A DNA stretch of 64,000 bases from Microbacterium sp. LWH7-1.2 (GTDB taxonomy: Bacteria > Actinomycetota > Actinomycetes > Actinomycetales > Microbacteriaceae): contig NZ_CP151637.1 in the NCBI RefSeq assembly GCF_038397755.1, positions 682,001 to 746,000 on the forward strand. The letters run 5' to 3'. A program made the translations under genes and the position numbers. The notes beneath the pieces are model-generated. The model was not told the DNA's origin and searched no databases. It worked only from the letters and a program-made list of their open reading frames with translations. This document shows, in pieces, positions 41,490-45,885 of this stretch (position 1 is the stretch's first letter; every line of letters begins with the position of its first letter).

Positions 41490-43541
41490 CTAGTCCGCGA
41501 GGCCGCGGCGTGCGAGGAGCGGCTCGATCTCGGCGTCCCGCCCGCGGAAGTCGCGGTAGGCCTCGAGCGGGTCCTTCGATCCACCCACCCCGAGCAGTCG
41601 TCCGCGGAAGCGGTCGCCATTCTCGCGACGCAGGCCGCCGTTCTCGCGGAACCACTCCACCGTGTCGGCGTCGAGCACCTCGCTCCAGATGTACGAGTAG
41701 TAGCCGGCGCTGTAGCCGCCCGAGAACACGTGGGCGAAGTACGTCGACGAGTACCGGGTCGGCACGGCCGGGTTGTCGAGGCCGATGTCGGCGAGGGCGG
41801 CCGCCTCGAAGTCGGCGACGTCGATGTCCGCCGCGGCGCCGGCCACCGAGAGGGAGTGCCACGCCTGGTCGAGCCACGCTGCCGCGAGGTACTCGCTGGT
41901 CGCGAAGCCCTGGTTGAACGCCTCCGACGCGTGGAGCTTCTCGACGATCTCGGCGGGCAGCGGCTCGCCGGTGTCGATGTGGCGGGCATACGACGCGAGG
42001 ATCTCCGGCCAGTAGATCCACATCTCGTTGACCTGGCTCGGGAACTCGACGAAGTCGCGGTAGACGTTGGTGCCCGCGAAGTGCGGGTACGTGACGGTCG
42101 CGAAGAGGCCATGCAGGGCGTGGCCGAACTCGTGGAACAGAGTGGTGACCTCGTCGAGGCTGAGCAGCGTCGGGCGCCCCTCGGCCGGCTTCGGCACATT
42201 GAGGTTGTTGACCACGATCGGCTGGGTGCCGCGCAGGCGCGACTGCAGCACGATCGAGTTCATCCACGCGCCGCCGCGCTTCGTGTCGCGCGTGTAGAGG
42301 TCGAGGATGTACAGCCCGAGTGTCGAACCGTCTGCGTTGCGGACCTCGAAGATGCGCGTGTCGGGGTGGTAGCCGCCGAGGTCCGTGCGCTCGGTGAAGG
42401 TGATGCCGTACAGGTCGGTCGCGGCGCGGAACACGCCGTCCTTGAGCACCCGCTCCGCCTCGAACCAGGGCCGCAGCGCCGCGCGGTCGAGGTCGTACTC
42501 GGCGGCGCGAACCTTCTCGGTGTAGAACGCCCAGTCGTGTGCTTCGAGGGCGAACGGCGCGGGGCCGGCGTCGATGATGGCCTGCAGCTTCGCCTGCTCG
42601 CGTCGCGCATTCCGCGCCGCCGGTGCGGCGAGCTGGCGCAGCAGGTCGTGGACTGCCGCGGGAGAGCCGGCGGTCTCGTCCGACGTGATGTACGCGGCGT
42701 GCGAGTCGTAGCCGAGCAGGGCGGCGCGCTCTGCGCGCAGACGCACGATCTCGAGCAGGGTCGCGCGGTTGTCGTGGTCGTTGCCTCGGGAGCCGCGGGA
42801 GCGGGATGCCGCGAGCAGGCGCGCACGCGAATGCCGATCGGTGAGGCTCGCCAGGTAGGGGTGGCCGGTGAAGAGGGTGAGGGTCACGACCCACTTGCCC
42901 TCCAGTCCTCGATCCGCCGCGGCCTGCGCCGCCGCGGAGAGCTCGCCCTCGGAGAGGCCGTCGAGCTCGGCGGCGTCGTCGAAGACGATCGCCAGGTCGT
43001 TGGTGTCGGCGAGCAGATTCTTCTCGAACTGCGTCGTGAGGGTCGAAAGCCGCTGGTTGAGCTCGGTGAGCCGCTTCTTCGACTCATCGTCGAGGCCCGC
43101 ACCGGCGTGGGCCATCTCGGTGTGGTGGCGCTCGACGAGGTAGCGCTGCTCGGGGGTCAGGTCGAGTTCGTCGAGCTGATCGTGGATCGTCTTGATGCGC
43201 CAGAACAGGGCGGAGTCCAGCTGGATCGAGTCCTGGTGCGCCGCCATGAGCGGCGCGAGCTGCTCCTCGATCTCCTGGATCTCGGCCGTCGCGTCTGCCG
43301 AGGACACCGTGTAGAAGGTCCGCGCGATGTCACCGAGCACTCGTCCGCTCTCCTCCAGCGGCACCAGCGTGTTCTCGAACGTGGGCATCGATCGGGCGCG
43401 CGTGATCGCGGAAACCTCGGCGGTGTGGGCGGCGAAGGCCTGCTCGAACGCCGGCAGATAGTGCTCGGGGCGAATGGCTGCGTAGTCGGGCAGCCCGTAC
43501 GGCAGCGTGCTGGGGGACAGAAGCGGGTTGTCGTGCGGCAT
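41490..43541 (-). CDS. M3-family metallopeptidase (oligopeptidase A/Dcp-like)
   Basis: 683 aa. Zinc endopeptidase that degrades oligopeptides from cytoplasmic protein turnover. The HExxH motif LFHEFGHALHGLF and the downstream FVEFPSQVNEMW supply zinc ligands; the N-terminal helical region is typical. ATG 43541 has TAGGCT (minus strand, 43549-43554) 7 nt upstream, a leaderless arrangement. It diverges from the TTGCA-repeat regulator operon, and the repeat array begins about 30 nt upstream of its -10 box, so the array could affect it too. Confidence 0.93.
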   Translation of the reverse strand: MPHDNPLLSPSTLPYGLPDYAAIRPEHYLPAFEQAFAAHTAEVSAITRARSMPTFENTLVPLEESGRVLGDIARTFYTVSSADATAEIQEIEEQLAPLMAAHQDSIQLDSALFWRIKTIHDQLDELDLTPEQRYLVERHHTEMAHAGAGLDDESKKRLTELNQRLSTLTTQFEKNLLADTNDLAIVFDDAAELDGLSEGELSAAAQAAADRGLEGKWVVTLTLFTGHPYLASLTDRHSRARLLAASRSRGSRGNDHDNRATLLEIVRLRAERAALLGYDSHAAYITSDETAGSPAAVHDLLRQLAAPAARNARREQAKLQAIIDAGPAPFALEAHDWAFYTEKVRAAEYDLDRAALRPWFEAERVLKDGVFRAATDLYGITFTERTDLGGYHPDTRIFEVRNADGSTLGLYILDLYTRDTKRGGAWMNSIVLQSRLRGTQPIVVNNLNVPKPAEGRPTLLSLDEVTTLFHEFGHALHGLFATVTYPHFAGTNVYRDFVEFPSQVNEMWIYWPEILASYARHIDTGEPLPAEIVEKLHASEAFNQGFATSEYLAAAWLDQAWHSLSVAGAAADIDVADFEAAALADIGLDNPAVPTRYSSTYFAHVFSGGYSAGYYSYIWSEVLDADTVEWFRENGGLRRENGDRFRGRLLGVGGSKDPLEAYRDFRGRDAEIEPLLARRGLAD

Positions 43542-43584
43542 GGCGTCCAGCCTAGTCACGCTGTCGGCCCATGCCGAGAGTCTT

Positions 43585-43646
43585 TTGCAAAGACCAGCTT
43601 GCAAACAACTGATTGCAAAGAAGCCCTTGCAAAGAATGCTTTGCAT
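43585..43646. repeat. Five TTGCA units at an exact 14-bp period (candidate operator array)
   Basis: TTGCAAAGACCAGC (43585), TTGCAAACAACTGA (43599), TTGCAAAGAAGCCC (43613), TTGCAAAGAATGCT (43627) and TTGCATCG (43641) start at exact 14-bp intervals. Each of the first four units is TTGCAAA followed by C or G; the fifth is TTGCAT and is also part of an inverted CTTTGCA (43639-43645). The array is AT-richer than its surroundings and overlaps the promoter of the regulator gene at 43662. It is the best candidate binding site for that regulator, possibly as several dimers side by side. Confidence 0.7.
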
Positions 43647-43655
43647 CGCTAATCT
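43627..43655 (+). promoter_or_regulatory. Promoter of the regulator operon
   Basis: TTGCAA (43627-43632), 17 nt, TAATCT (43650-43655), then 6 nt to ATG 43662. The -35 hexamer is the fourth unit of the TTGCA array and the fifth unit lies in the spacer, so a protein bound to the array would block polymerase. The transcript is predicted to be leaderless. Confidence 0.65.
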
Positions 43656-43661
43656 GGGGTC

Positions 43662-44297
43662 ATGGCTGAGAACGAGACTCCGCGGGGGCAAGACGCCGCC
43701 CGCACCGAGCAGCGCCACAACCAGGACCGCGTCCTGGACTCGGGCGCCCTCAGGGCGCTTGCGCACCCGCTTCGCGTGAAGATCTACGACATCCTCAGCC
43801 AGTACGGTCCGCAGACGGCGAGTTCGCTCGCCGAGCGACTGGAGGAGTCCAGTGGATCGACGAGCTACCACCTTCGCGCCCTCGCCAAGCAGGACCTCAT
43901 CCGGGAGGCCGAGGATCGCGGCACCGGCCGCGAGCGCTGGTGGGAGCGTCCGGTCGGGGGCGTGTCGTTCGCGAACCCCGACGCGATGACGACGCCCGCG
44001 GGCCGCGCGGCGACGCAGGTCGTGATGAACGAGTTCCTGCGCAACCGCAACGACCAGCTGCTCGACTTCGTCAACAGGGGGATCGGCGGCGAGGACGAGA
44101 TGTGGCAGGAAGGGACGCTGATCTCCACCGCGACCGCCCGCCTCACGCCGGAGCAGAGCAAGGAACTGGCGCTGAAGATCATGGCGCTCATCGACGAGAC
44201 CGTCGACAACTACCGCAATCAGACCGGAGAGGACGTCCGGCCCGTCACCATCCGGGCCGACCTGTTCCCGCTCCCGCAACTTGGAGGACAGTCATGA
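43662..44297 (+). CDS. Winged-helix (ArsR-like HTH) transcriptional regulator
   Basis: 211 aa. N-terminal ArsR-like winged helix (about 25-100): [20 protein letters not shown], recognition helix [18 protein letters not shown] and wing [14 protein letters not shown]. The C-terminal half (about 110-211) is helical, with [20 protein letters not shown], and probably binds an effector. Regulators of this design commonly sit next to and control MFS exporters. The operator is likely the TTGCA array. It overlaps the next gene by ATGA and starts without a Shine-Dalgarno. Confidence 0.9.
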
Positions 44298-44524
44298 CCG
44301 CCATCACGGCAGACGAACTGGCAGCACGTGGGTTCCGGGCATCCGCCACCCGATTCGACCGCGCGCTGCTGCGCGCAGCATCCGCTCTCGACGCGTACGT
44401 CGTCGCACGTGTCGAGAAGCGAGACGACGCCCAGGAGCGTCGCGCGCTGGCCGTACAGGCCGCCGCGAGCGTTGCGCGGCGCGAAGCCGAGGCGCGCGCG
44501 GCGATGGGGTTGCTTCCGCGATGA
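44294..44524 (+). CDS. Small helical protein, 76 aa, function unknown
   Basis: ATG 44294 overlaps the regulator stop (ATGA), and its own stop overlaps the MFS start (ATGA), so all three are translated together. The protein is Ala/Arg/Glu-rich and predicted almost entirely alpha-helical. It is soluble and basic (RHRKRR-like clusters [24 protein letters not shown]). No motif is recognised. Its placement suggests an accessory role for the regulator or the transporter, but a pure coupling spacer is possible. Confidence 0.72.
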
Positions 44525-45885
44525 GCGAGAGCGTCGACACGGCGGAGCGGACCGGATCGCCGGCCGGGCGGGAAGGCAGGGTCCCGCTCGGCCGCGATTT
44601 CGGCAAGCTGTGGACGGCGGCCGCCTTCAGCAACCTGGCCGACGGCCTCGGGCGAGTGGCAGTTCCGCTCATCGCCACCACCCTCACCCGTGATCCGCTG
44701 GCCATCTCGGCGATCGGGGCGCTGGCGTTCCTCCCGTGGCTCGTCTTCGGCCTGCCCGCGGGCATGATCGTCGACCGCTTCGACCGACGATGGATCATGG
44801 CGATCGCGAACGGCATCCGCGGCCTTGCCGCTGTCGGGCTCGCCGTCCTCACCGTCGCGGGGGCGCTCGACATCTGGTGGCTGTTCGCCGGCGTGCTGGT
44901 GTTCGGCCTGGGCGAGACGCTGTTCGACAACGCGACCAATGCGATCGTGCCGAGCGTGGTGAAGCGCCCCGCCCTCGACCGCGCCAACGGCTGGCTGCAG
45001 GCTGCGCAGATCACGATCGACAGCTTCATCTCTTCGCCGATCGGCGGCGTGCTGTTCGCGATCTCGCTCGCGCTCCCGCTCTGGGTGGGCGCGGCGGGCT
45101 ACCTGATCCCCATCGTGCTCGCGGTGATGCTTCCCCTGTCCGCCGCTCGTCCACTGCACGGTGCGCCCGCCGCGTCGGTGCGAGCCGACGCGGCGGTGGC
45201 GGCGGGCGACCCGCTGGCAGCTTCCGAGGAGGCTTCCGAGAAGAGTGTCGGGACGGGTGCCGCCACGGCAGCCCGCCCGAACGTCTCGGCCCGCGACGCC
45301 TTCGCTTACCTGTGGAACCACCGGTTCCTGCGCTCGATGGTGATCTTCACGTCCATCGTCGGCTCGGCGTTCGCGTTCGCCCAGGCACCCGTGTTCTTGT
45401 ACTTCCTCGACGTGCAGCACGTTCCGGCGGCTGCGATCGGCGTGGTCACCGCCGGGATCGGGCTCGGCGGACTCGGCGGCTCGCTCGTCGCCTCCTCGCT
45501 CGTTGCGAAGTTCGGCCGTGGCGCTGTCATGCTGGGCGCCAACGTCGTTGCAGCGCTCAGCCTCGCTGCCGTCTGGGCGGCACCCGAGGCGATCACTGGG
45601 ACGATCGCCTACGGCCTCATGGCGGCCGCCGTGTCGGTGTGGAACGTGCCCTGGGGTGCGCTGCGCCAGACGATCGTGCCCGGCCACCTGTTCGGCCGCG
45701 TGCTGGGCATCAGCCGCACGTTCACGTGGGGCATCTTCCCGTTCGCGACGCTCCTCGGCGGGTGGGTCGCCCGCATCGACCTGCGGCTGCCGTTCCTCAT
45801 CGCAGCGGGGGTCACAATCGTCGCGACCCTCTTCGCCGTTCGGCTGCTCCTCTCGGCGTCGCAGCACGACGCACCGGAGGAATGA
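44521..45885 (+). CDS. MFS transporter (drug/metabolite efflux type)
   Basis: 454 aa with about twelve membrane helices. The MFS motif [11 protein letters not shown] follows the second helix; a long Ala-rich cytoplasmic loop (about 210-255) joins the two halves. It resembles actinobacterial MFS exporters paired with ArsR-like regulators. The start ATG 44521 overlaps the 76-aa gene. Regulated through the TTGCA-array promoter, presumably induced by its substrate. The substrate is unknown. Confidence 0.9.

Follow-up and report, generated by a model that had tools for sequence, protein, structure and literature searches.

Genomic context and sequence of the array

The window analysed here, a stretch of 64,000 nucleotides of Microbacterium sp. 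LWH7-1.2, contains a gene (43662..44297, + strand) for a regulator of 211 aa with an N-terminal HTH_20/HTH_5 winged helix. The protein has an ArsR-like helix-turn-helix according to both PF12840 (46.1 bits for a cut-off of 27) and PF01022 (33.2 bits for a cut-off of 22). Its stop codon is overlapped (ATGA) by a small ORF of 76 aa without Pfam match (44294..44524, + strand), followed by a gene for an MFS transporter (44521..45885, + strand; PF07690/PF05977) which is found in Microbacterium-type loci and which, by reading alone, lies between the small ORF and an apparent valyl-tRNA synthetase gene. On the other side, a divergent gene encodes a Dcp-like M3 peptidase (41490..43541, - strand; PF01432); its start is 43 bp from the first repeat unit described below, and it could share the control region.

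Upstream of the regulator gene, TTGCA begins at 43585, 43599, 43613, 43627 and 43641, with a spacing of exactly 14 bp. TTGCAA is its own reverse complement, therefore the units are palindromic cores and not directional repeats, and the array of five TTGCAA-type cores (43585..43646) is assigned to neither strand; the last core (43641) reads TTGCAT instead of TTGCAA. When both strands were searched with at most one mismatch, the eight 14-bp pairs of the window were all inside the array, for 0.60 expected and a maximum of 4 in 100 shuffles. Among 200 copies of the window generated by a first-order Markov model, the longest 14-bp run of TTGCA was a single unit in 198 and two units in 2. The array is real and far beyond chance, and these positions, shuffles and Markov copies bear out the five units at an exact 14-bp period reported in the first-pass annotation. 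Elsewhere in the 4.45-Mb genome, exact TTGCA-N9-TTGCA occurs as a single lone pair at 2554490, and no second array with the exact TTGCA 14-bp pattern was found in the whole genome.

Conservation of the array beside the regulator

The first-pass annotation had made conservation of the array beside orthologous regulators the test of its reading, and had called for a search of genomes for arrays with this spacing; the outcome of both was positive. When the genome collection was scanned with the regulator, 113 pattern stretches, 78 relatives and 77 loci were obtained. Upstream of the regulator, 77/77 loci carry two or more cores (TTGCA or TGCAA) at a distance of exactly 14 bp. The runs comprised two cores in 7 loci, three in 7, four in 34, five in 20, six in 6 and seven in 3, with at least four cores in 63/77. 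According to the record titles, these loci belong mainly to Microbacterium and other Microbacteriaceae. The single Streptomyces locus and the single Chloroflexi locus have two cores each, and the pair of the Streptomyces locus (L076) lies far upstream, out of register with its -10. In a second set of 246 genomes of the class, a relative of the regulator was found in 111; the 14-bp pair was present in 28 of the best 30 class-level loci, and the array is absent from locus L160. Among 60 further, more distant class-level loci picked from the listed matches, a TTGCA pair at 14 bp was present in 19 and absent in 41, many of the latter carrying other cores.

The same association was obtained from DNA alone. 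The pattern GCAA-N8-TTGCAA-N8-TTGC, used without any protein information on 248 genomes of the order, matched in 29, at one place per genome, against 2/248 for the reversed control. A relative of the regulator (30.7-100% identity) adjoins the array in 29/29 matched genomes, its match beginning from 29 bp inside the array pattern to 140 bp past it. In a phylum-wide DNA scan, 12/296 genomes were matched, own genome included, for 2 genomes with the reversed control, and a relative was beside the array in 9 of the 11 other genomes. The exceptions, G148 and G233, each examined at one locus, are AT-rich matches. G233 contains 18 AT-rich matches of a TTGCAA repeat at 14 bp, spread over several contigs, and the sole locus examined there (L095) is not beside this regulator, so that the matches may belong to an unrelated repeat family. 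No relative of the regulator was found in phage records.

For the quantitative comparisons, 166 loci were reduced to 91 representatives of less than 70% identity, of which 54 have arrays of at least three cores. In the PDB, a profile of these 91 sequences hits chains of NmtR, ArsR and NolR, and a search with the single regulator protein gave no match; the structure model was of low quality and unusable (pLDDT 41.8). The score with the metalloregulator model NF033788 was 41.2 bits, under its cut-off of 55, and the 211-aa translation contains zero cysteines, other metal ligands being possible. Within the genome of the window, no TTGCA pair at 14 bp was found beside other HTH_20 paralogues (30 of 37 matches examined). 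Outside the array, no further perfect copy of the predicted site described below was found in the genome and one site with one mismatch was present, at 3558264; at up to two mismatches, 30 matches were obtained for 86 with the reversed control, that is, no signal of a wider regulon. One array place per genome, together with one perfect site in the genome of the window, fits a local autoregulator. Upstream of the HTH match of one paralogue of the same genome (L105), the reverse strand carries CTGAAAG-N3-CTTTCAG and CTGAAAG-N3-CTTGCAG, possibly a related operator with another core.

A predicted leaderless promoter in register with the cores

The fourth core is also the -35 element of the regulator promoter (TTGCAA, 43627..43632, + strand), located 17 bp from the -10 element (TAATCT, 43650..43655, + strand), with the ATG at 43662, 6 nt downstream. 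Both elements and the short distance to the start codon are as the first-pass annotation had placed them, and they recur in relatives. Of the 56 representatives that have an array, 48 show a TANNNT box whose end lies 6-8 nt before the start codon, and 8 have none there; elsewhere in those loci, the same box precedes 26 of 8251 ATG/GTG codons (searched at 5-8 nt). In 44/48, a 17-bp spacer places the -10 in register with the cores, and in these 44 promoters the -35 place is exactly TTGCAA in 39, with 1, 2 and 4 mismatches in 1, 3 and 1 promoters, respectively. Since the -10 lies 6-8 nt before the start codon, leaderless transcripts are predicted, and the regulator transcript of the window, with a transcription start placed from these elements, would be one of them.

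The predicted binding unit

The ends of the arrays are informative about the binding unit. With a core-calling criterion that is symmetric, the first cores of the 54 arrays match AAAG on their inner half at 0.88 and CTTT on their outer half at 0.38, whereas the last cores match CTTT on their inner half at 0.88 and AAAG on their outer half at 0.34. For the first cores, the inner half is the better one in 47 and the outer half in 4, with 3 ties; for the last cores, these numbers are 48, 1 and 5. As the conservation of end cores falls mainly on the inner half, the site would be the interval between cores, GCAAAG-N4-CTTTGC, and the TTGCA unit named in the first-pass annotation is probably not the binding unit. 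That annotation had also set the array against an inverted-repeat operator, an opposition that the asymmetry of the end cores does not sustain, as it points to a chain of inverted repeats sharing their cores. The predicted site is a dimer-sized inverted repeat, with half-site centres 10 bp apart, which is the usual reach of a winged-helix dimer. If the interval is the site, N cores carry N-1 sites, each inner core serving two, and the half-sites of adjacent intervals overlap by 2 bp, the central GC. With at least two dimer-sized predicted sites, the array corresponds to a multi-dimer tandem operator of fixed spacing. The N4 spacer was the best, alone or tied, in 69 of the 72 representatives with a good site, and an inverted-repeat scan free of any motif favoured a spacer of 4 modestly (21.5 of 91, the next at 14.6). 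The internal cores of the 54 arrays are themselves asymmetric, the right half (AAAG) matching at 0.87 and the left half (CTTT) at 0.70; a pure dimer chain does not predict this, and it counts against our best explanation.

In the window, the primary predicted dimer site (43629..43644) is a perfect inverted repeat between -35 and -10, GCAAAG-AATG-CTTTGC (12/12), and this sequence, GCAAAGAATGCTTTGC, is the sole perfect copy in the genome. Going upstream, the predicted dimer sites are GCAAAG-AAGC-CCTTGC (43615..43630, 11/12), the weaker GCAAAC-AACT-GATTGC (43601..43616, 9/12) and GCAAAG-ACCA-GCTTGC (43587..43602, 10/12). A possible extra weak site, GCCGAG-AGTC-TTTTGC (43573..43588, 9/12), lies upstream of the first core, the left TTGCA core being absent. 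These sites, like the array, are given no strand.

Among relatives, the interval that begins with the -35 core reaches 11/12 or more in 35/45 in-register arrays. When only intervals bounded by called cores are considered, its mean is 11.34 of 12, for flat means of 10.05, 9.91, 10.60 and 10.50 in the upstream intervals and 10.88 in the interval after the promoter one. Set against the mean of the upstream intervals of its own array, the promoter interval scores higher in 27 of 34 arrays, the same in 3 and lower in 4, so that the site predicted on the promoter is the strongest of the array. A steady fading of site strength upstream was considered and ruled out: short arrays are simply without a site there, and the means of the bounded intervals are flat. 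A further site with both halves at least 4/6 covers the -10 in 30/45 arrays.

Other cores and periods

The 14-bp period extends beyond the TTGCA core. In the 35 representatives without a TTGCA pair, self-matching was strongest at lag 14 among the 40 lags compared (z 4.9), for a z of 10.3 at the same lag in the 56 representatives with the pair. A palindrome score picked period 14 from 10-18 in 62/90 representatives (L073, incomplete, was left out), some of these picks being GC-rich chance matches (e.g., L170, L175 and L195). Other cores were recognized by eye in many representatives, namely TTGGCCAA, TTGCGCAA, TTTGCGAA/TTCGCGAA and TTGTACAA. The TTGGCCAA type is present in all seven loci L224-L230, with the helix SASASYHLR, two of these loci duplicating L178 and L191. 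A period of 13 was read in five loci (L181, L183, L188, L213 and L215), with an N3 spacer for L183 and L188 in the motif scan; the 13-bp arrays do not form a single tree branch (3 changes). TTGGC units were associated with the recognition helix, being found in 9 of 16 rows in which G65 is replaced by A and in 1 of the 88 that keep G (Fisher p 3.9e-8, without the 4 rows in which the residue is a different one); on the tree this link amounts to only 6 changes and a tree-aware test was not significant. A recognition-helix code for the core is thus suggestive only.

Genes downstream of the regulator

An ORF of 60-130 aa follows the regulator in 62/74 testable loci, with the ATGA overlap in 40. Among representatives, such an ORF is found in 21/29 and the overlap in 11/29, for 330/900 and 3/900 at random places; the informative number is the ATGA overlap and not the presence of an ORF as such. 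The small ORF of the window (44294..44524), whose position behind the regulator is taken by an arginine-rich counterpart in many related loci, may be the actual constant output of the operon. In the class-level loci L147, L152, L156, L159, L161 and L162, a different ORF of about 60-80 aa (e.g., MHPETHL... RTRLGWTLVEVGLRL) follows the regulator.

The first-pass annotation had described the promoter as that of a regulator-exporter operon. The regulator promoter stands, but the exporter as a constant partner is ruled out, an MFS homologue being found in 38/77 loci (a few loci end before its position). Many other array loci have no multi-span membrane ORF nearby, yet have a small ORF after the regulator. 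In the Cryobacterium locus L050, an M3 peptidase gene, the regulator, a small ORF and a class I tRNA synthetase gene follow one another in this order, without MFS; these flanking genes are recurrent in the group, the M3 peptidase being present in 27/40 and the class I tRNA synthetase in 29/40 other loci. From this order, the exporter seems to have joined a smaller operon, composed of the regulator and the small ORF, at a later stage. The Agromyces loci L065 and L069-L071 have different flanking genes.

Proposed mechanism and alternative explanations

We consider it likely that the array is the autorepressor operator of the regulator encoded at 43662, built as a chain of dimer sites that share their cores. 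Binding by the regulator, repression, the number of dimers bound at once and the ligand are parts of this proposal that we infer from features read in the sequence itself, that is, the array, its spacing, the half-conserved end cores, the promoter register and the association with the regulator. One regulator dimer would occupy each interval between neighbouring cores (GCAAAG-N4-CTTTGC), the five cores providing four good sites, each with a core common to the next. Successive dimers would be shifted by 14 bp and turned by 120 degrees, with three dimers for four DNA turns. The promoter interval would be bound first, and a dimer on this best site, which covers the -35 and the spacer of the leaderless promoter, could block the RNA polymerase. 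The weaker upstream sites would be filled next; by increasing local occupancy or cooperativity, they could deepen repression or make it respond more sharply to the concentration of the regulator. Expression of the regulator, of the small ORF and, in Microbacterium, of the exporter would be turned on when a ligand frees the dimers.

Several other explanations could be issued. The overlap of adjacent half-sites by the central GC leads to a reading in which neighbouring dimers exclude each other: if neighbours are unable to sit side by side, the sites of the array would be alternatives to one another, or only alternate intervals would be filled, with a higher capture rate and no chain. A promoter interval clearly better than the upstream ones and a copy number ranging from 2 to 7 are in agreement with this reading, which we nevertheless regard as unlikely, as an exact 14-bp register across deep divergence is easier to explain with touching neighbours and arrays of at least four cores are common. 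It is much less probable that one dimer, or two monomers, would sit on each palindromic core TTTGCAAA, the row of cores forming a protein filament as the first-pass annotation had supposed. The near-palindromic internal cores are consistent with it, and a helical filament could follow the regular spacing with its rotation of 120 degrees; the end cores keep mainly their inner half, which disfavours one dimer per core, and, with 4 bp between the centres of its halves, a core leaves too little room for the pair of recognition helices that a winged-helix dimer typically carries. The multi-site part of that supposition holds, but an ordinary winged-helix dimer per interval suffices, and a continuous filament is possible and not needed. 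Head-to-tail monomers on direct repeats would account for the better conservation of the right halves of internal cores, and BldC of Streptomyces forms filaments on direct repeats (PMC5859096); this arrangement predicts neither a last core that keeps its left half and loses the right one nor a near-perfect inverted repeat in the promoter interval, and seems highly improbable.

Only a small probability is likewise given to the array being read by another protein, or activating instead of repressing. The upstream sites could indeed be activator sites, but the predicted sites over the -35 and the spacer, and the frequent further site over the -10, are in the position of a repressor; moreover, every match of the blind pattern in the order lies just upstream of the regulator family, and other members of this family carry other cores at the same period. 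Finally, the differences in copy number among relatives could recall a tandem repeat expanded by slippage, without regulatory role. In that case, however, spacers should not behave as observed: the four central spacer bases show no more identity inside one array (0.390) than from one array to another (0.383) and, in the window and three close five-core relatives, the cores are invariant (0/144 differences) whereas the spacers vary (63/192). A slippage origin is rejected on these data, and its probability is negligible.

If the chain of core-sharing dimer sites is the right reading for the window, it could be extended to a family-wide architecture in actinobacterial HTH_20 regulators, a tentative generalization to which we give somewhat less than an even chance. 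Such chains would be fused to a leaderless promoter, with a period (13 or 14 bp) set by the protein geometry and a core (TTGCAA, TTGGCCAA, TTGCGCAA, TTCGCGAA or TTGTACAA) that follows the recognition helix. With a strong site on the promoter and weaker ones upstream, the length of the chain would set the sharpness with which the regulator gene reacts to the protein it encodes. In many lineages, a small uncharacterised protein, and not the exporter, would be the output that stays constant. The many natural operator variants (2 to 7 cores, a 13- or 14-bp period, several core sequences), each beside its own regulator, are well suited to examining how autoregulation depends on the number, phase and strength of the sites, and to the study of a recognition-helix code among ArsR-like proteins. 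The array is also a DNA signature for finding such regulators, and points to a small, uncharacterised protein that is co-transcribed.

Comparison with known systems

In the literature searched, where subscription journals are sparsely covered and listings are partial, no description of the array was found. Tandem dimer operators and winged-helix filaments are, nevertheless, already known kinds. Operators of the MetJ type have at least two adjacent dimer sites with a fixed spacing that are filled cooperatively; the array resembles them in its predicted adjacent dimer sites at fixed spacing, MetJ differing by its ribbon-helix-helix fold and 8-bp boxes. The regulator is like the ArsR/SmtB metalloregulators (e.g., AzuR/SmtB) in its ArsR-like winged helix (HTH_5/HTH_20), in probably being a dimer and regulating itself, and in the transporter gene that adjoins it in the window. 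Unlike them, it is 211 aa long, with a long C-terminal part and no cysteine. The AzuR/SmtB-type operator is one 12-2-12 inverted repeat (PMC8790569), whereas a chain of 6-4-6 repeats at 14 bp (GCAAAG-N4-CTTTGC) is predicted here.

With BldC of Streptomyces, the array shares a variable number of regularly spaced promoter repeats, which BldC binds cooperatively (PMC5859096). BldC is a 68-residue MerR-like protein placed head to tail on 9-bp direct repeats, whereas here the repeats are inverted, their period is 14 bp, and the protein is HTH_20/ArsR-like, with no MerR family among its six Pfam matches. RdfS and Xis-type proteins are winged-helix proteins that oligomerise along DNA (PMC11963761); RdfS acts without a consensus motif, whereas in the arrays described here both motif and spacing are strict.
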